This document shows, in pieces, positions 3,659 to 10,502 of a DNA stretch of 32,194 nt. The DNA is from an uncultured Pseudomonadota bacterium (GTDB taxonomy: Bacteria > Myxococcota_A > UBA796 > SXON01), in the NCBI GenBank assembly GCA_903959175.1, contig CAJBVW010000365.1, forward strand, positions 1 through 32,194, given 5' to 3'. The translations under genes were made by a program, and so were the position numbers. The notes below the pieces were generated by a model that did no database searches, was not told the origin of the DNA, and saw only the letters and a program-made list of their open reading frames with translations. Positions within the stretch are counted from its first letter, which is position 1. Each line of letters begins with the position of its first letter.

Positions 3659-4021
3659 ATGCGATTCCTCACGTATGTCTTGATCGTCGCGGCGCTCGCC
3701 GCGGGTGGCTGGGTGTGGTTCTTCGGCCCCTACTGGATCGACTCCTACAAGATGCAGGACGTCGCCGGCAGCGCCGTCCTCTCGTGGGCCGCGTTCGACG
3801 AGGGCAAGGGCAAGGCCGAGCTCGCCGCCGAGCTCAAGCGTAGGGAGATCCCCGACTACCTCACGCCTGACGCCTGCAGCTTCTACCTCGAGTCCGGCGG
3901 GGTCAAGGTCGTGGACTGCGCGTGGACGGTCGACGTGTACCTCCCCCTCGTCGACCAGGCGCGGCGGATCTCCTTCCAGGTGGTGAAGTCGGCCGGCACC
4001 GACGGGCGCCTGATCGAATGA
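3659..4021 (+). CDS. Small membrane-anchored protein, first gene of the pyr group
   Basis: A 120-residue protein with one N-terminal hydrophobic segment (about residues 4-22) and a short, mostly polar domain behind it, probably outside the cytoplasm. The domain has two cysteines (Cys73, Cys87) and ends in a beta-like stretch VDVYLPL...ISFQVVK. The layout (one helix, then about 90 residues ending in a hydrophobic strand) resembles DUF4845-type proteins, but the match is loose and no function can be given. The stop codon overlaps the pyrR start by four bases (ATGA), so it is co-translated with pyrR. That coupling is the only functional hint. Confidence 0.7.
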   Translation: MRFLTYVLIVAALAAGGWVWFFGPYWIDSYKMQDVAGSAVLSWAAFDEGKGKAELAAELKRREIPDYLTPDACSFYLESGGVKVVDCAWTVDVYLPLVDQARRISFQVVKSAGTDGRLIE

Positions 4022-4527
4022 ACCGGGTGCTCGACGGCGCGGGGCTCGCCGCGGCGGTGGACGCCGTCGCGGATCAGGTCATGACCGCCATGGCGCGCGT
4101 GCCCCGGTGGGCGCTCGTGGGGATCCGCGCGGGCGGCGTCCCCTTGGCCGATCGCATCGCCGACCAGGTGTTGGCGCGCACCGGTCACCGCCCCCTGCGC
4201 GGCGCGGTCGACATCACGCTCTACCGGGACGACCTCTACACCGGCCTCGAGAAGCCCGTCCTCGGCGACACCGACCTGCCGTTCGAGGTCAGCGGCTGCG
4301 GCATCGTGCTGGTGGACGACGTGTTGTTCACCGGGCGCACCGTGCGCGCCGCGATGGGAGAGGTGTGGGACTTCGGGCGGCCGGCGTTCATCCGCCTCGC
4401 CGTCCTCGTCGACCGCGGCCACCGCGAGCTCCCGATCGCGCCGGACTTCGTGGGGCTCACGATCGCGACGGGCCTCCACGACAAGGTCGTCGTGGACTGG
4501 GCGGGGCAGGAAGTGGGCATCCGATGA
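4018..4527 (+). CDS. pyrR: PyrR, bifunctional pyr regulator / uracil phosphoribosyltransferase
   Basis: A 169-residue type I phosphoribosyltransferase. The PRPP-binding loop VLVDDVLFTGRT (residues 97-108) with its two acidic residues is diagnostic. VDITLYRDDLY (64-74) and RRxRG-like DRGHRELPI (132-140) are typical of PyrR rather than other PRTases. The enzyme converts uracil and PRPP to UMP. In Bacillus it also binds pyr mRNA to promote termination when UMP is high. Here no attenuator leader with a PyrR-binding loop is visible between the genes, so an RNA role within this operon is not supported by the sequence. The start ATG overlaps the preceding stop, and the stop overlaps the pyrB start (ATGA). 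An upstream in-frame extension is rejected because it lies inside the previous gene. Confidence 0.93.
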   Translation: MNRVLDGAGLAAAVDAVADQVMTAMARVPRWALVGIRAGGVPLADRIADQVLARTGHRPLRGAVDITLYRDDLYTGLEKPVLGDTDLPFEVSGCGIVLVDDVLFTGRTVRAAMGEVWDFGRPAFIRLAVLVDRGHRELPIAPDFVGLTIATGLHDKVVVDWAGQEVGIR

Positions 4528-5462
4528 AGAAGAAGCGCAAGGATCTGCTCGGGCTCCGGGGCGTCGAGCGGGAGGAGATCGAGGAGATCCTCGCCACCGC
4601 GGAGCAGATGCGGGAGATCTCCAGGCGAAAGGTCAAGAAGGTGCCGACGCTCCGCGGCCGCACCGTCGTGACGCTCTTCTTCGAGAACTCGACCCGCACC
4701 CGCACCTCGTTCGACCTCGCCGCCAAGCGCCTCTCGGCGGACACCCTCAGCTTCTCGGTGAGCACGTCCTCGACCACCAAGGGCGAAACCCTCATGGACA
4801 CCGCGCGGACCATCTTCGCGATGTCGCCGGACGCCGTGGTCGTGCGGCACTCCTGCGCCGGGGCCCCGCACCTCCTCGCCCGTCACTTTCCGTGGACGGT
4901 CCTCAACGCGGGGGACGGCATCAACGAGCACCCCTCGCAGGCCCTCCTCGACATGCTCACGATGCGGGACCGCCTCGGCTCGCTCGAGGGCCGGAAGGTC
5001 GCGATCGTGGGGGACGTGCAGCACTCGCGCGTGGCGCGCTCCAACATCTTCGGCCTCACGACGATGGGCGCCAGCGTGCGCGTCGCCGGGCCCGGCACGA
5101 TGTGCCGCTCCGACCTCGCGGCGCTGCCCGTCGAGATCCGCCACACGGTGGACGACGTGGTGAAGGACGCCGACGTGATCATGATGCTCCGCATCCAGCG
5201 CGAGCGGCTCGGCCGCGCGGTGCTGCCGAGCGCACGCGAATACGCAGCCTTCTACGGTCTTGATCTGGAGCGGCTCTCCCGCGCGCGGCCGGACGTCGTC
5301 GTCATGCACCCCGGCCCGATCAACCGCGGTGTCGAGATCGCCGCGGACGTGGCGGACGGCCCCAACAGCGTGATCCTCGACCAGGTGACCAACGGCATCG
5401 CCGTGCGGATGGCCCTCCTCTTCCTCCTGCTCGGGAACGCTGAAGATGCCTCGCCTACTTGA
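4524..5462 (+). CDS. pyrB: Aspartate carbamoyltransferase catalytic subunit
   Basis: A 312-residue ATCase catalytic chain, the normal length for the family. It condenses carbamoyl phosphate with aspartate in the cytoplasm, the committed step of pyrimidine synthesis. The carbamoyl-phosphate site STRTR is at residues 56-60 inside FFENSTRTRTSF. The mobile-loop SSTTKGETL carries Lys86. The HPSQALLD motif is at 136-143, and the aspartate-domain motif MHPGPINRG is near residue 263. All key residues are present, so it should be active. No pyrI regulatory subunit follows; instead a dihydroorotase-like gene overlaps its end by 17 bases, as in bacteria with the PyrB-PyrC' dodecamer. The ATG overlaps the pyrR stop. 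Confidence 0.96.
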   Translation: MKKKRKDLLGLRGVEREEIEEILATAEQMREISRRKVKKVPTLRGRTVVTLFFENSTRTRTSFDLAAKRLSADTLSFSVSTSSTTKGETLMDTARTIFAMSPDAVVVRHSCAGAPHLLARHFPWTVLNAGDGINEHPSQALLDMLTMRDRLGSLEGRKVAIVGDVQHSRVARSNIFGLTTMGASVRVAGPGTMCRSDLAALPVEIRHTVDDVVKDADVIMMLRIQRERLGRAVLPSAREYAAFYGLDLERLSRARPDVVVMHPGPINRGVEIAADVADGPNSVILDQVTNGIAVRMALLFLLLGNAEDASPT

Positions 5463-6690
5463 CGTGACGGTGTTCGGCGAGCCCGCCCCGCGCGACGTCG
5501 TGGTGGGCGCGGACGACCACGCCATCGACGCGCGCGGCCTCGTCCTGCTCCCCAGCCTCGTCGACCTCGGCTGCGATCCCGGCTTCCCGGGCTTCCCCGC
5601 CCGCGAGGACCTCGGCTCGCTCGCCGCGGCCGCCCTCGCCGGTGGCTTCGGAGACCTGCTGGTCTCCCCCCTCGTCGATCCCGTCGTGGACACCCCCGAG
5701 CAGATGGCCTCGGCGGCGAGGCGCGGCCCCGGCGGCGTGCGTCTCTGGCCCGCGGGCGCCGTCACCCGCGGCCTCCTCGGCGAGGAGCTCGCCGAGATCG
5801 GGCTGATGGGGGCGGCTGGCGCCGCCGCGCTCTCCGACGGCGGGCGGCCCATCCGCGACACCGTCGTGCTCCGCAACGTCCTCGAATACGCGCGCGGCTT
5901 CGGCCTGCGCGTCCACCTCCGCCCGGCGGACGCCGACCTCGACGTCCTCGGCGTCCTGCACGAGAGCGGCGTCGCCGCCGAGCTCGGCATGCGCGGCAAC
6001 CCCGCCTCCGCCGAGGAGATCGGCATCGCGCGCATCGTCGCGCTCGTGCGCACCACCCGCGCGACCGTGCACCTCACCCGCATCGGAACGGCGCGGGGCG
6101 TCGCCGCGATCCGCGCCGCGCGCGCCGAGGGCCTGCCGTTCACCGCCTCCACCGCCGCGCGAAACCTGCTCCTCGACGAGACCGAGCACCACGCCCGTCC
6201 GTACGACACGCGCCTACGCCTCCACCCGCCGCTCCGCAGCCCCGCCGATCGCGCCGCGCTGCTCGCGGGCGTCCGGGACGGCACCCTCCTCCTCACCGCG
6301 GACCACGCCCCGCGCGCCCCCGAGGAGAAGGACCTCGAGTTCGAGCTGTCCACGCCGGGCTCCACCGGGTTGGAGACGGCCTTCGCCGCCGCCTTCACCG
6401 CGCTCGGCGGCGACCTCGCGACCCTCGTGCGCGCCTTCTGCGTGGGCCCACGGGCGCTCCTGCCCGAGCAGCCCGGCGGCTGTGTCCTCGTCGACCCCCT
6501 CGCGACCCCCCTCGTGGACGCCGCGCTGCACCGCTCGCGGGCCCGGAACGACGCGCTGGACGGCCACCGCCTGAGGGGCTTGGTGCGCGGCTGCTTCCCC
6601 GAAGCGTCGATCCCTTGGGCGGGCGTGTTAGTCTCCCGGGATGCAACGTCTCCCCATGACCCCGGTGGGCTACCAGAAGCTCCTGGCTGA
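5446..6690 (+). CDS. pyrC': Dihydroorotase-like protein, probably non-catalytic PyrC'
   Basis: A 414-residue amidohydrolase-fold protein aligned along its length with class I dihydroorotase: PSLVDLGCDPG, SDGG, NPPLRSPEDR-like HPPLRSPADRAALL, TADHAPRAPEEK, STGLETAF. The metal-binding HxH of the VDxHxHxREPG motif is replaced by Gly42-Cys43-Asp44. The usual TPHH is TAARN, and the His after DHAP is Arg290. His157, His209 and Asp286 remain. A protein without HxH cannot build the binuclear zinc site. In Pseudomonas such a PyrC' is a structural partner needed to assemble PyrB, and overlap with pyrB supports the same role. A catalytic dihydroorotase must then be encoded elsewhere. The gene's last 50 bases overlap the start of greA. 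Confidence 0.88.
   Translation: MPRLLDVTVFGEPAPRDVVVGADDHAIDARGLVLLPSLVDLGCDPGFPGFPAREDLGSLAAAALAGGFGDLLVSPLVDPVVDTPEQMASAARRGPGGVRLWPAGAVTRGLLGEELAEIGLMGAAGAAALSDGGRPIRDTVVLRNVLEYARGFGLRVHLRPADADLDVLGVLHESGVAAELGMRGNPASAEEIGIARIVALVRTTRATVHLTRIGTARGVAAIRAARAEGLPFTASTAARNLLLDETEHHARPYDTRLRLHPPLRSPADRAALLAGVRDGTLLLTADHAPRAPEEKDLEFELSTPGSTGLETAFAAAFTALGGDLATLVRAFCVGPRALLPEQPGGCVLVDPLATPLVDAALHRSRARNDALDGHRLRGLVRGCFPEASIPWAGVLVSRDATSPHDPGGLPEAPG
6629..6634 (+). promoter_or_regulatory. Candidate -10 element TAGTCT for greA, leaderless start
   Basis: TAGTCT ends six bases before the greA ATG and lies inside the end of the PyrC' gene. The six bases CCCGGG in between contain no Shine-Dalgarno. It would give greA its own supply of mRNA, independent of the pyr genes. 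Confidence 0.4.
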
Positions 6691-7117
6691 TTTCAAGCAC
6701 GTCCGTGAGGTCCTGCGCCCCCAGGTGGTCCGCGACATCGAAGAAGCGCGGGCCCACGGCGACATCAGCGAGAACTCCGAGTTCGAGGACGCGAAGGAAC
6801 GCCAGGCCCACCTCGACGGGCGCATGCGCGACATCGAGGCCCGGCTCTCCCTCGCCGACGTGATCGACATCACCACGGTCGAGGCCTCTGACCGCGTGAT
6901 CTTCGGCACCACGGTCGACCTCGAAGACACCGACACCGGCGAGTCCATCACCTACAAGTTCGTCGGCACCGAAGAGATGGACGTGAAGGCAGGCCTGATC
7001 TCCTTCTCGTCCCCCATCGGGCGCGCCCTCATCGGTCGCTCCGTCGGGGACGAAGTGCGCTTCGAGACCCCGAAGGGTACGCGCACGGTGGTGATCAACG
7101 CCGTTCACTACCGCTAA
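6641..7117 (+). CDS. greA: Transcription elongation factor GreA
   Basis: A 158-residue GreA, normal length. It rescues backtracked RNA polymerase by stimulating transcript cleavage through the secondary channel. The N-terminus RLPMTPVGYQKL is typical. The coiled-coil tip RAHGDISENSEFEDAKERQ (about residues 37-55) carries the acidic pair Asp41 and Glu44 that coordinates the catalytic magnesium. The C-terminal half (from about 80) is the FKBP-like domain ending FETPKGTRTVVI. ATG at 6641 is preferred over ATG at 6656 because family members start a few residues before the PMT motif. The start lies inside the end of the PyrC' gene. Only ten bases separate it from the RecG-like gene. Confidence 0.96.
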   Translation: MQRLPMTPVGYQKLLADFKHVREVLRPQVVRDIEEARAHGDISENSEFEDAKERQAHLDGRMRDIEARLSLADVIDITTVEASDRVIFGTTVDLEDTDTGESITYKFVGTEEMDVKAGLISFSSPIGRALIGRSVGDEVRFETPKGTRTVVINAVHYR

Positions 7118-7127
7118 GGATCCCCCC

Positions 7128-10070
7128 ATGACTGCTGCGTCCGTCCATGAGGCGCTCGCTGTCCTGGGTCGCACCGCCGGCTGGCTCGCGCGTGATGGCA
7201 ACGTTGCCCACGCCCGCTACGTCGAAGCGACCCTCGCCCGCTGGGCTGCCCCCCCTCCCGAGTCCCCGGAAGGCGACCTCACGGTCGGCTTCCAGGCCAT
7301 CCGTGACGTCATCGCCGGCTTCGACGCCGAGCCCGAGGACGAGCGGAGGTCCCGCGTCTCCCAGTTGCTCGCGCGCATCGAGTCGCTGCGAACCCACGCC
7401 GGCGCCGGCGAGGCCCCCTCGTGGGCGCCCCGCGCGGTCCTATTGCCCGCCGGGATCCTCGCGGATCTGCCGCCGAAGGCCCCGCCCCCGCCGCCGGTGG
7501 TCGAGCCCGTCTTCCCGGACGATGACAGCGGCGAGCCCGGTCGCGCCCCCGAGCGGCGCGAGGCCGACGAGCGCGGCGAGCGCCCGGAGCGCGCGGATCG
7601 ACCGGAGCGTGGCGAACGCCCCGAACGCCCCGAGCGTGGCGACCGCCCAGAGCGCGCCGAACGTGCCGAGCGCGGGGATCGCCCCGAACGTGCCGAGCGC
7701 GGGGAACGCGCCGACCGTGCCGAGAAGGGAGAACGTGGCGAGCGCCGCGAGCGTGGAGACCGGCGCGAGCGCGGGGAACGCGGGGATCAGCCCCGCCGCC
7801 GCTCGGACGAGGCCACGGCCGAGGGTGGTCGCCGCAACGGTCGGGACGATCGCGCCGCCGAAGGCGTGGTCGAGGCGCCCGTCGCCGCGCCCGAGCCGCC
7901 GAAGCCGCCGTCGCCGCCCCCCGAGCCGCGCACCTTCCCGCTCTTCCACCCGGAAGGTACGGGCGAGCCCGTCGAGGCCCTCGGCGGCATCGACGAGGCC
8001 GACCTGGCCGCGTACACCGCGGCCGACATCACCACCGTCGCCGACCTCCTCCTCCGCCCGCCCGTCGCCATCGAGCGCGCCGGCGAGCGCTGGGTCCCGG
8101 GCGTCGCGCCCGAGGGACCGGTCATCGTTCGCGGCACGGTCAAGACGCGCCTCACCCGGTTCACGGCGGGCGTCCGCCGGCATGAGGTCGTCCTCACCCA
8201 CGACAAGGGTGAGGTCTCCTGCCGCTGGCTCGGCGCCGTCCCGATCGAGGTCACCGCGCTCCGCGCCGGGGCCGAGGTCGGCTTCGCCGGCATGATCGAG
8301 ACCGACATGGACACCCCCGAGCCGGTGGAGGGCGTCGAGACCGTCGGCGCCGCCGTGCTCTACGAGGGCGAGCCCCTCGGGGTGGACGGCCGCGGCGGGG
8401 ACTGGTTCCCCCGCTACGAGGTGCCCGGCATCGACGAGACGCGGGTCCGCGCCGCCATGCGCGCCGCGCTGCGCAAGCACGCTGATACCCTCCAGGATCA
8501 CCTCCCGGCGGACGTGATCGAGCGCTTCCGCCTCCTGCCGCTCGCGCAGGCGCTGCGGGACGTGCACTTCCCGAGCAACGCGAGCCGGAAGGGCCGTTCG
8601 CGCCTCGGCTTCGACGAGCTCCTCCAGGTCCAGCTCGGCGTCGCCCTGCTGCGGGCGCGCGAGCGTCGGGAGCGCGGCGTGCCGAACCCCGTGAGCCACA
8701 CCCTCGTCGCGCAGGCGCACGGCATGGGCGGCTGGCAGTTCACGGACGAGCAGGAGCTCGCGTTCGATGACATCCGTCGCGATCTGCGCCGGCCCCAGCC
8801 GATGACGCGCCTCCTCCAGGGGGACGTCGGCGTCGGCAAGCACGCGGTCGTGCAGGCGGCGATGGTGCTCGTGGCCGAGGCCAAGCACCAGGCGCTCTTC
8901 CTCGCGCCCGACGCGCTCTCCGCGGAGCACCGCTACCTGTTCGCCGAGTCGTTCTACAAGGCCGTCGGCCTCGAGCCCATGCTCCTGACCGGCCCCCCGA
9001 CCCGCGCGCAGACTGAGCAGCTCAAGAAGGGCGAGATCCTCGTGATCTACGCAACGCACGCCCTCGCGAAGGACGTGCCCACCTTCCGCAAGCTCGGGCT
9101 CGTCGTGTTCGAGGAGCAGGGCACCTACGGCGCCGCGGACATCTCGCCGTTCGAGGTCCAGGGCCAACGCCCCGATCTGCTGGTCTTCACGCCGACCCCC
9201 GTGCCGAGCGCGCTCCTGCTGAACCTGTACGGCCAGCTCGCGCTCAGCGTCATCCAGAGCGGCGTCCAGCGCGGCGTCGACACCGCGTCCTTCGACACCG
9301 ACCACCGCGACGAGGCCTACCGGCTGGGCCGCGAGGCGATCGAGGCCGGGCAGCAGGTCATGATCGTGTTCCCCGTCATCCGGGGCCAGGATCTCCTCTC
9401 GCCGTCCGAGGCCCGTCGCCTGTCCGAGGTGCTCGCAACGGAGACCTTCCCCGGATCCCGCGTGGGTATCTTCAACGGCGGCATGTCGCGCGAGGAGCGC
9501 TTCCGCGCCTACGACGACTTCCAGCACCGTCGTACGGAGGTCCTGCTCTGCACGACCTACGTGGAGCACGGTCCGGTCGTCCCCAACGCGGCCGTGATGA
9601 TCGTCGAGCAGGCGCAGCAGTACGACCTCGTGCGGCTCCACCGGCTGCGTGGCCACATCGGAAACGGCTGGCGGCGCGGCCAGTGCCTCCTCGTCGTCGG
9701 GGACGATCCCCGCCCCGAGGCGCGCCACAACATCGATCTCCTCCTCAAGGAGACCGACGGCTACCGCATCGCCGAGCTCGACCTCCGGCACCGCGGCATG
9801 GAGGCCGCCCTGGGAGACCGCGCGGCGGACGCCCCCGACTTCGTCTGGGCCGACCCCGTCACCGAGCGTGACCTCATGGTGCGCACCCGCCAGGAGGCCG
9901 TACGCCTCCTCAACGTGGACCCCGGGCTCAAGCGGCGCGCCCACCGCCCGCTCCTGAACCTCGTCCGCGCGCGCTTCGGAGAGGACGCGGTCCCCGAGGG
10001 CGGCGCCCCTCCGGCCGCCGTCGTGGACGCCAAAGAGCGCGGCCGCCGTCGCCGTCGCCGCGGGAGGTAG
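7128..10070 (+). CDS. RecG-family protein with degenerate ATPase/helicase motifs and charged repeat
   Basis: A 980-residue protein with RecG architecture. After an N-terminal helical region (1-110) and a low-complexity insert (about 143-224) come a wedge/OB-like region (285-440) and two RecA-like domains (540-900). Active RecG has GDVGSGKT, DEQH, TATP and QLRGRVGRG. Here they read GDVGVGKH (Lys571, His572), EEQG (662-665), TPTP and RLRGHIGNG (both motif VI arginines lost at 843 and 846). Loss of the P-loop Thr, the Walker B Asp and the arginine fingers should abolish ATP hydrolysis, yet the frame is intact. It probably acts as a DNA-binding or scaffold pseudohelicase; this is inference. Start ATG is preceded by AAGGA at good distance. 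A poly-basic tail (RGRRRRRRGR) ends the protein. Confidence 0.85.
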   Translation: MTAASVHEALAVLGRTAGWLARDGNVAHARYVEATLARWAAPPPESPEGDLTVGFQAIRDVIAGFDAEPEDERRSRVSQLLARIESLRTHAGAGEAPSWAPRAVLLPAGILADLPPKAPPPPPVVEPVFPDDDSGEPGRAPERREADERGERPERADRPERGERPERPERGDRPERAERAERGDRPERAERGERADRAEKGERGERRERGDRRERGERGDQPRRRSDEATAEGGRRNGRDDRAAEGVVEAPVAAPEPPKPPSPPPEPRTFPLFHPEGTGEPVEALGGIDEADLAAYTAADITTVADLLLRPPVAIERAGERWVPGVAPEGPVIVRGTVKTRLTRFTAGVRRHEVVLTHDKGEVSCRWLGAVPIEVTALRAGAEVGFAGMIETDMDTPEPVEGVETVGAAVLYEGEPLGVDGRGGDWFPRYEVPGIDETRVRAAMRAALRKHADTLQDHLPADVIERFRLLPLAQALRDVHFPSNASRKGRSRLGFDELLQVQLGVALLRARERRERGVPNPVSHTLVAQAHGMGGWQFTDEQELAFDDIRRDLRRPQPMTRLLQGDVGVGKHAVVQAAMVLVAEAKHQALFLAPDALSAEHRYLFAESFYKAVGLEPMLLTGPPTRAQTEQLKKGEILVIYATHALAKDVPTFRKLGLVVFEEQGTYGAADISPFEVQGQRPDLLVFTPTPVPSALLLNLYGQLALSVIQSGVQRGVDTASFDTDHRDEAYRLGREAIEAGQQVMIVFPVIRGQDLLSPSEARRLSEVLATETFPGSRVGIFNGGMSREERFRAYDDFQHRRTEVLLCTTYVEHGPVVPNAAVMIVEQAQQYDLVRLHRLRGHIGNGWRRGQCLLVVGDDPRPEARHNIDLLLKETDGYRIAELDLRHRGMEAALGDRAADAPDFVWADPVTERDLMVRTRQEAVRLLNVDPGLKRRAHRPLLNLVRARFGEDAVPEGGAPPAAVVDAKERGRRRRRRGR
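7554..7800 (+). repeat. Low-complexity Arg/Glu/Asp/Gly repeat inside the RecG-like gene
   Basis: About 80 codons made of imperfect three-residue units of the types ERG, ERA, DRP and ERP (for example ERPERGDRPERAERAERG). The DNA shows repeated units such as GAGCGCGGGGA and CCCCGAACG with third-base variation, so it is a drifting tandem array and not a recent exact duplication. The peptide is highly charged, nearly neutral overall, and expected to be disordered. Confidence 0.85.
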
Positions 10071-10073
10071 GTC

Positions 10074-10502
10074 GTGCCGGTCGCGCAGCGGAGCATCGAG
10101 ATCGACGTACCGCCCGCCTCGTTGATGGGCGTGATCTGCGACTTCGCGGCCTATCCGCGCTTCCTCCCCGACATGGAGGAGGCGACGGTCCTGCGCGCCG
10201 AGCCCGATCGGTGGTCCGTGCGCTACGCCCTGCGCATCATCCGGCGGGTCGAGTACACGCTCGACCACGTCCGCGAGGGGGACACCCGCCTCCGCTGGCA
10301 GCTCGTCGAGGGCGCGTTCAAGTCCAACAGCGGCAGCTGGGAGCTCGAGCCGCTCGACGGCGGCACGCGCACCCGCGCGACCTACACGCTCGACATCGAT
10401 CTCGGCATGTTCGTCCCCGGTAGCGTGCTCAAGACCCTCCTCGAGCACAACCTCCCGGCGACCCTCGCCGCCTTCAAGCGGCGCGCCGAGCTCGGACACT
10501 AG
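10074..10502 (+). CDS. SRPBCC / START-like protein (RatA, COQ10 type)
   Basis: A 142-residue single-domain protein of the polyketide cyclase/START-like (SRPBCC) fold. The start VAQRSIEIDVPPASLMGVIC, then DFAAYPRFLPDMEEATVL and the C-terminal long helix (LKTLLEHNLPATLAAFKRRA) match the RatA/COQ10-like subgroup, in which a hydrophobic pocket binds a lipid or quinone. The strands between (WSVRYAL, RLRWQLVEG, SNSGSWELEPLD, TRATYTLDIDL) complete the grip. The ligand is unknown. The GTG start has a strong ribosome binding site (GGGAGG) inside the end of the RecG-like gene. The stop is directly followed by the GTG of the next gene, so the genes form one transcription unit. Confidence 0.85.
   Translation: MPVAQRSIEIDVPPASLMGVICDFAAYPRFLPDMEEATVLRAEPDRWSVRYALRIIRRVEYTLDHVREGDTRLRWQLVEGAFKSNSGSWELEPLDGGTRTRATYTLDIDLGMFVPGSVLKTLLEHNLPATLAAFKRRAELGH

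Follow-up and report, generated by a model that had tools for sequence, protein, structure and literature searches.

The window analysed here, a stretch of 32,194 nucleotides from an uncultured bacterium, carries at positions 7128-10070 a gene that is RecG by profile and by genomic position, and whose ATPase and translocation motifs are degenerate. The comparison draws on 46 degenerate copies, referred to below as the degenerate clade, and on a canonical set of 39 RecGs from elsewhere in the same phylum; "order" denotes the order of the source organism, searched in 44 genomes from six families, with 22 genomes in its own family. The features of the locus, in window coordinates, are as follows.

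3922..6690, + strand: pyrR, pyrB and a pyrC-like gene, a conserved context that flanks canonical recG in relatives too
6641..7117, + strand: greA, ending 10 bp before the pseudo-RecG ATG, with the tip D-x-x-E residues retained (GDISENSEF)
7128..10070, + strand: pseudo-RecG gene, ATG at 7128, TAG at 10068-10070, 980 aa, no internal stop
7128..7472, + strand: N-terminal helical region by alignment, residues 1-115, recognisable order-wide
7473..7934, + strand: charged low-complexity linker, residues 116-269, RPERxERGER-type repeats, length and sequence varying between genera
7965..8402, + strand: wedge/OB-fold domain by alignment, residues 280-425, diverged, W367 (Tm W203) retained
8229..8231, + strand: L368 at the fork-capping Phe position (Tm F204), Phe in 39/39 canonical copies versus 3/46 of the degenerate clade
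8415..9842, + strand: full-length two-lobed SF2 motor fold, residues 430-905, from PDB 1gm5 and profile A2 matches
8820..8843, + strand: motif I by motif reading, GDVGVGKH (canonical GDVGSGKT)
9111..9122, + strand: motif II by motif reading, EEQG (canonical DEQH)
9189..9200, + strand: motif III by motif reading, TPTP (canonical [ST]ATP)
9633..9635, + strand: R836, clade-specific, Arg in 46/46 of the clade and Gln in 38/39 canonical copies
9651..9668, + strand: motif VI by motif reading, GHIGNG (canonical GRVGRG)
9783..9836, + strand: degenerate TRG (translocation) motif region, RGMEA for RGPGE, Q899 to A, G901 to D
10041..10067, + strand: poly-Arg C-terminal tail GRRRRRRGR, residues 972-980, common to the whole order

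The NCBIfam RecG model NF008168 matches residues 32-952 of the window protein (E 1.9e-127), the protein matches T. maritima RecG (PDB 1gm5) with E 4e-76, and profile A2, built from the degenerate clade, matches the same structure over positions 2-490 of 491 (E 2.9e-136), scoring 457.9 bits against it versus 241.7 bits against Mfd, so that RecG is the closer of the two. All curated RecG equivalog cut-offs are nonetheless unmet, the protein falling far under that of NF008168 (426.6 bits, cut-off 718) and under that of TIGR00643 (323.9 bits, cut-off 659.4), and Pfam yields no more than a weak Helicase_C match and a RecG domain 3 below threshold. The charged repeat itself lies at about residues 140-225, within a linker that joins the N-terminal helices to the wedge; this linker is common in family f1 and varies strongly in length and sequence. 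The motor of the window protein, with a net charge of -5, is not basic. An AlphaFold model, for which only three near-identical sequences could be aligned, reached pLDDT 36 and pTM 0.27 and is unusable as structural evidence. Downstream lies a gene for a polyketide cyclase/START-like protein (10074-10502, GTG start), and the end of the poly-Arg tail with the stop codon (GGG AGG TAG, within 10062-10076) supplies a Shine-Dalgarno-like GGGAGG ahead of that GTG.

The gene order pyrR-pyrB-pyrC-greA-recG is identical in two class-level relatives with a fully canonical RecG (G049 and G053), and the window gene is therefore recG at its ancestral locus, altered where it stood; this synteny with canonical recG in outgroups rules out an origin as an acquired paralogue. 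In 41/41 degenerate copies with enough upstream sequence, the gene immediately before recG, in the same orientation, is greA, mostly across a gap of 10-60 bp, and the pairing persists in family f3 even though the pyr genes are not nearby (two loci read). Adjacency to greA is also found at 17 of 34 testable canonical recG loci. The pairing thus predates the loss of the motor and ties RecG to GreA generally, without proving a new role, and because it is ancestral it is only weak evidence for a function in transcription. In the same neighbourhood, the pyrC-like gene (5446-6690) reads DLGCDPG where a dihydroorotase has its metal-binding HxH; the HxH is lost in f1g5 and f2 too, and class relatives with canonical RecG retain DLH.HLREPG. 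This gene also looks like a pseudoenzyme, an inference that rests on its sequence only. Inactive dihydroorotase-like partners of aspartate carbamoyltransferase exist in other bacteria.

The residues at issue in the window protein are K571 and H572 in motif I, E662, E663, Q664 and G665 in motif II, T688, P689, T690 and P691 in motif III, and H843 and N846 in motif VI. At the positions changed in the window, the canonical RecGs of the phylum read T572, D662, A689, R843 and R846, each in 39/39 copies; in the degenerate clade T572 is found in 0/46 and R843 in 1/46. Further changes in the window protein affect motif Ia (T to D; the change is to an acidic D or E in 44/45 degenerate copies), motif III at R694, motif V at D817, Q836 and Q839 ahead of motif VI, the wedge Phe, and the TRG motif, whose columns 892, 899 and 901 are lost (canonical RGPGE...Q.G). 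The ATPase signature, comprising the Walker A GKT, the DEx[HQ] box and the motif VI arginines, is accordingly unmet in the window protein and in the clade. Three key residues, K571 (the Walker lysine), E663 (of catalytic type) and R841, are retained in the window protein and across much of the clade (35/46, 35/46 and 41/46, respectively), and T809 and E813 are nearly invariant there. Since the window protein retains K571 and E663, it may still bind nucleotide or even hydrolyse it slowly, and we do not exclude this. In the wedge, Tm F204 is the Phe that stacks on a base at the fork, and the Trp beside it is a partly buried structural residue (PMC7889586); the Trp is kept in 41/46 degenerate copies. 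Because the motifs and the wedge Phe are lost, yet profile A2 matches 1gm5 over the whole motor, we infer from sequence alone that motor function and canonical fork capping have both been abandoned and the fold retained. A separate pocket of E. coli RecG, R467/R474/R614, binds the C-terminal tip of SSB (PMC10164576). The R467 and R614 columns are unconserved in the degenerate and canonical phylum sets alike, and the alignment placement of R474 is uncertain; as the pocket residues are unconserved in either class, we draw no inference on SSB docking.

An earlier sequence-only reading had described an intact 980-codon frame at 7128-10070 with GKH, EEQG, TPTP and GHIGNG at these residues, a charged repeat, a poly-Arg tail and a position behind greA. 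All of this held, coordinates and length exactly. Its statement that every motif is altered in its key residues held only in part, as K571, E663 and R841 remain, and more positions are altered than it listed.

No second, canonical recG is present in the source genome (95% complete, 611 contigs), where a search with the RecG model gave two strong matches, Mfd (C257) and the gene described here. Above the model cut-off, RecG was found in 0/22 genomes of the family and 0/44 of the order. Scoring below a cut-off proves little by itself, as several of the phylum's canonical RecGs fail that of TIGR00643 too, and we therefore read the motifs directly: all copies recovered from the order, in every family, have broken motifs, and 39/39 phylum RecGs outside it, the most divergent included, carry GDVGxGKT, DEQ[HQ], ATPIP and RGR[VI]GR. 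The manner of breakage varies among the lineages of the order. Two congeners (L001 and L002) have motifs identical to those of the window protein, genus g3 reads ADAGAGAH in motif I with the Walker Lys gone, genus g6 reads EQSG in motif II with the catalytic Glu changed to Gln, and family f3, whose divergent copies are also retrieved by profile A2, reads GSTDAGVD or APSETQQM in motif I, several of its members being without the Lys. A single member of the order, G014, yielded no copy in the profile A2 search; pyrB is missing there too, which suggests a likely assembly gap at the locus. Within the class, canonical RecG occurs only in other families (f8 and f9), and it is widespread in the phylum.

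RecG has been described as nearly ubiquitous (PMC1193525). It went undetected in many other families of this phylum, among them families with single-contig genomes, in which only Mfd was found. Eleven such RecG-less genomes (G166, G204, G136, G200, G057, G080, G168, G071, G122, G114 and G052) were inspected at the pyr locus (L155-L165), and no RecG was present there. Since recG is missing entirely from many other families, its motor appears dispensable in the phylum; the order of the window kept the body without the motor. Elsewhere, in family f28, the remains of a recG gene contain an in-frame stop (L153, G158:C3:34000-37000), and loss of RecG is apparently ongoing there. The class also holds a second degenerate RecG, in family f7 (G048; L073, L167), with an ORF of about 1540 aa and a long acidic insert; the G048 copy lies behind greA, has no poly-Arg tail, and may represent either an independent conversion or a sister of the window clade. 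Among the other repair genes considered, RuvB was found in 32/34 genomes of the order, PriA scored over its cut-off in 29/34, and the Mfd motor motifs are intact in all 20 f1 genomes examined. Because these three look normal, the loss among RuvB, PriA, Mfd and RecG is specific to RecG.

A protein without its motor could simply be decaying, and the selection data speak against this. With dN/dS estimated by NG86 over the C-terminal 700 codons of close pairs, three congener pairs give 0.16, 0.16 and 0.15, g3, which has no Walker Lys, gives 0.09-0.14, and g6 gives 0.05-0.18; most close pairs fall at 0.05-0.2, and distant pairs and some f3 and f5 pairs are higher, at 0.2-0.55. Unless a contig or locus end truncates them, all copies have long intact frames of about 800-1000 aa, and this holds down to about 30% core identity. 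In a tree built with the motif columns excluded, 37 degenerate rows lie on one side of a single branch with SH-aLRT 99 and a long stem of 0.62; the f7 copies are placed as sister to this clade with weaker support, and branch-length attraction is possible. The clade has lost 30 near-invariant canonical RecG columns and retained 39, and eleven columns are conserved solely within it, R836 in 46/46 copies being one example; R801/R802, D683, D595 and D797 are also among its clade-only positions. The ATPase and translocation residues were thus lost once, in the common ancestor of the order, and the protein has been under purifying selection since. Given the low dN/dS, the one origin and the clade-only conserved columns, the degenerate RecG is very probably a protein under constraints of its own rather than a decaying one, and it meets the criterion for a helicase-derived pseudoenzyme, namely clade-wide catalytic loss in a frame under purifying selection.

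The common ancestor of the order also gained a poly-Arg C-terminus. At least six Arg or Lys within the last 12 residues are found in 42/43 complete degenerate C-termini versus 0/37 canonical ones, and the lone exception (L053) has its basic run slightly further in. Because the codons are mixed (CGC, CGT, CGG, AAG, AGG and CGA) and Lys substitutes for Arg, the tail does not derive from codon slippage, and it is the charge that is conserved. Its presence across the order favours a charge-based binding role; that the ligand would be nucleic acid is inferred from the charge alone.

These results bear on the interpretive claims of the sequence-only reading. It had proposed that selection keeps a RecG-shaped protein unable to hydrolyse ATP, and pointed to homologues, a second canonical recG and dN/dS as informative. 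This part held, with the absence of ATPase inferred from the missing signature: homologues with the same changes exist, identical in two congeners and degenerate in all families of the order, no canonical recG was found in the source genome or the 44 order genomes, and dN/dS within the genus, at 0.15-0.16, is not near 1. Simple recent decay, which it named as the alternative, failed, since the changes are order-wide. Its suggestion of a scaffold that binds DNA or RNA and is linked with transcription by way of greA finds only partial support: the tail favours charge-based binding, the adjacency to greA does not by itself support a transcription link, being present at half of the testable canonical loci (17/34), and the wedge no longer has its junction-binding Phe, which makes classical fork binding less likely.

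We posit that the window protein is a selected pseudo-translocase, which we regard as very likely even though its inactivity is inferred from its sequence. In the mechanism we envisage, productive ATP hydrolysis and movement on DNA would no longer occur, and the dead motor and wedge body would dock a protein partner or nucleic acid by way of the new conserved positions (R836, R801/R802, D683, D595 and others). The disordered polybasic tail would tether the protein either to an acidic partner or to nucleic acid, be it DNA or nascent RNA; the protein would probably be co-expressed with GreA from a greA-recG operon, and its site of action would perhaps be the interface of replication, repair and stalled transcription. 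That it serves as a nucleic-acid- or transcription-linked scaffold acting through its tail is a proposal for which the case is evenly balanced, and the transcription step, which rests on gene order, is the weakest part of the mechanism. Taken as a whole, a converted RecG acting as a non-catalytic scaffold is the explanation we favour by a modest margin, with no biochemistry behind it and its function unproven. A bolder reading is possible though rather unlikely, in which a single conversion at the base of the order turned a fork-reversal motor into a non-catalytic, poly-Arg-tailed factor that would work with GreA on stalled transcription or on replication-transcription conflicts.

Two rivals are unlikely without being excluded. 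In the first, the protein would act, along with GreA, as a decoy or regulator for Mfd: an inactive paralogue of its motor that, where RNA polymerase has stalled, either competes with Mfd or modulates it. Homology between the motors of RecG and Mfd (profile A2 versus Mfd, E 1e-70), an Mfd whose motifs are intact in each of the 20 genomes checked, and the survival of the greA pairing in f3, where the pyr genes have moved away, speak for it; against this, direct evidence of interaction is absent, and the RNA polymerase-contacting domain of Mfd is not found in the pseudo-RecG. In the second, the protein would be a reader of branched DNA, the wedge recognising forks, D-loops or R-loops and the dead motor clamping them so as to shield the junction or recruit PriA or RuvAB. 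The retained wedge domain with its buried Trp and the intact PriA and RuvB of the order speak for it, but the stacking Phe is lost in 43/46 copies and the motif Ia Thr is almost always acidic, so that canonical junction and duplex contacts would weaken.

An active RecG, in which a non-standard site hydrolyses ATP and forks are still remodelled, is very unlikely. In its favour are the frequent retention of K571, E663 and R841, the near-invariance of T809 and E813, and the fact that this is the sole RecG found in these genomes. Against it stands the joint loss of the Mg-binding Thr and Asp, both motif VI arginines (843 and 846), the wedge Phe and the TRG motif; the Lys is missing from g3 and from several members of f3, g6 has Gln for Glu, and constraint is unrelaxed in g3 and g6. 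Decay, in which recG is dispensable and the copies are pseudogenes still in frame, finds some support in the complete absence of recG from many other families of the phylum and in the broken remnant of G158, but is all but excluded by the long intact frames, a dN/dS well below 1, the deep single origin, and the clade-specific residues and tail. A sequencing error or contaminant contig is ruled out, as two independent congener genomes share the motifs and the locus, and Mfd reads normally there.

The converted RecG we favour resembles the RecG fork-reversal translocases of SF2 (T. maritima 1gm5 and E. coli-type 9wm0) in having N-terminal helices, wedge and two motor lobes in the same order, in its full-length profile match and in occupying the same genomic locus as in relatives; it differs in its degenerate ATPase and translocation motifs, the missing wedge Phe, and the added charged linker and poly-Arg C-terminus. 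With the transcription-repair coupling factor Mfd it shares a homologous motor and TRG region, whereas Mfd's own motifs are intact in these genomes and the window protein has a wedge in place of the Mfd domains. Inactive-helicase scaffolds are familiar from RecC, AddB and the C-terminal cassette of Brr2, the last described as an inactive helicase module (PMC8220420). Like these, the window protein would have a helicase fold that is retained for a structural or regulatory purpose after catalysis has gone; unlike them, derived as they are from other helicase families and placed within known multi-subunit machines, it would have arisen by conversion of the single-copy RecG itself. In the literature searched, which mostly excluded subscription papers, neither a RecG pseudohelicase or pseudoenzyme nor RecG in connection with Myxococcota is named.

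How far the roles of RecG depend on its motor has so far been hard to separate. This order separates the body of RecG from its motor: many lineages of the phylum dropped recG, and one retained a motorless body with a polybasic tail. The automated annotation "RecG helicase" would mislead for this clade. The order makes it possible to test directly what RecG does without its motor and whether the greA-recG pairing has a functional basis, and the bolder reading, if true, would mean that a repair enzyme found almost everywhere had given rise to a new functional class.
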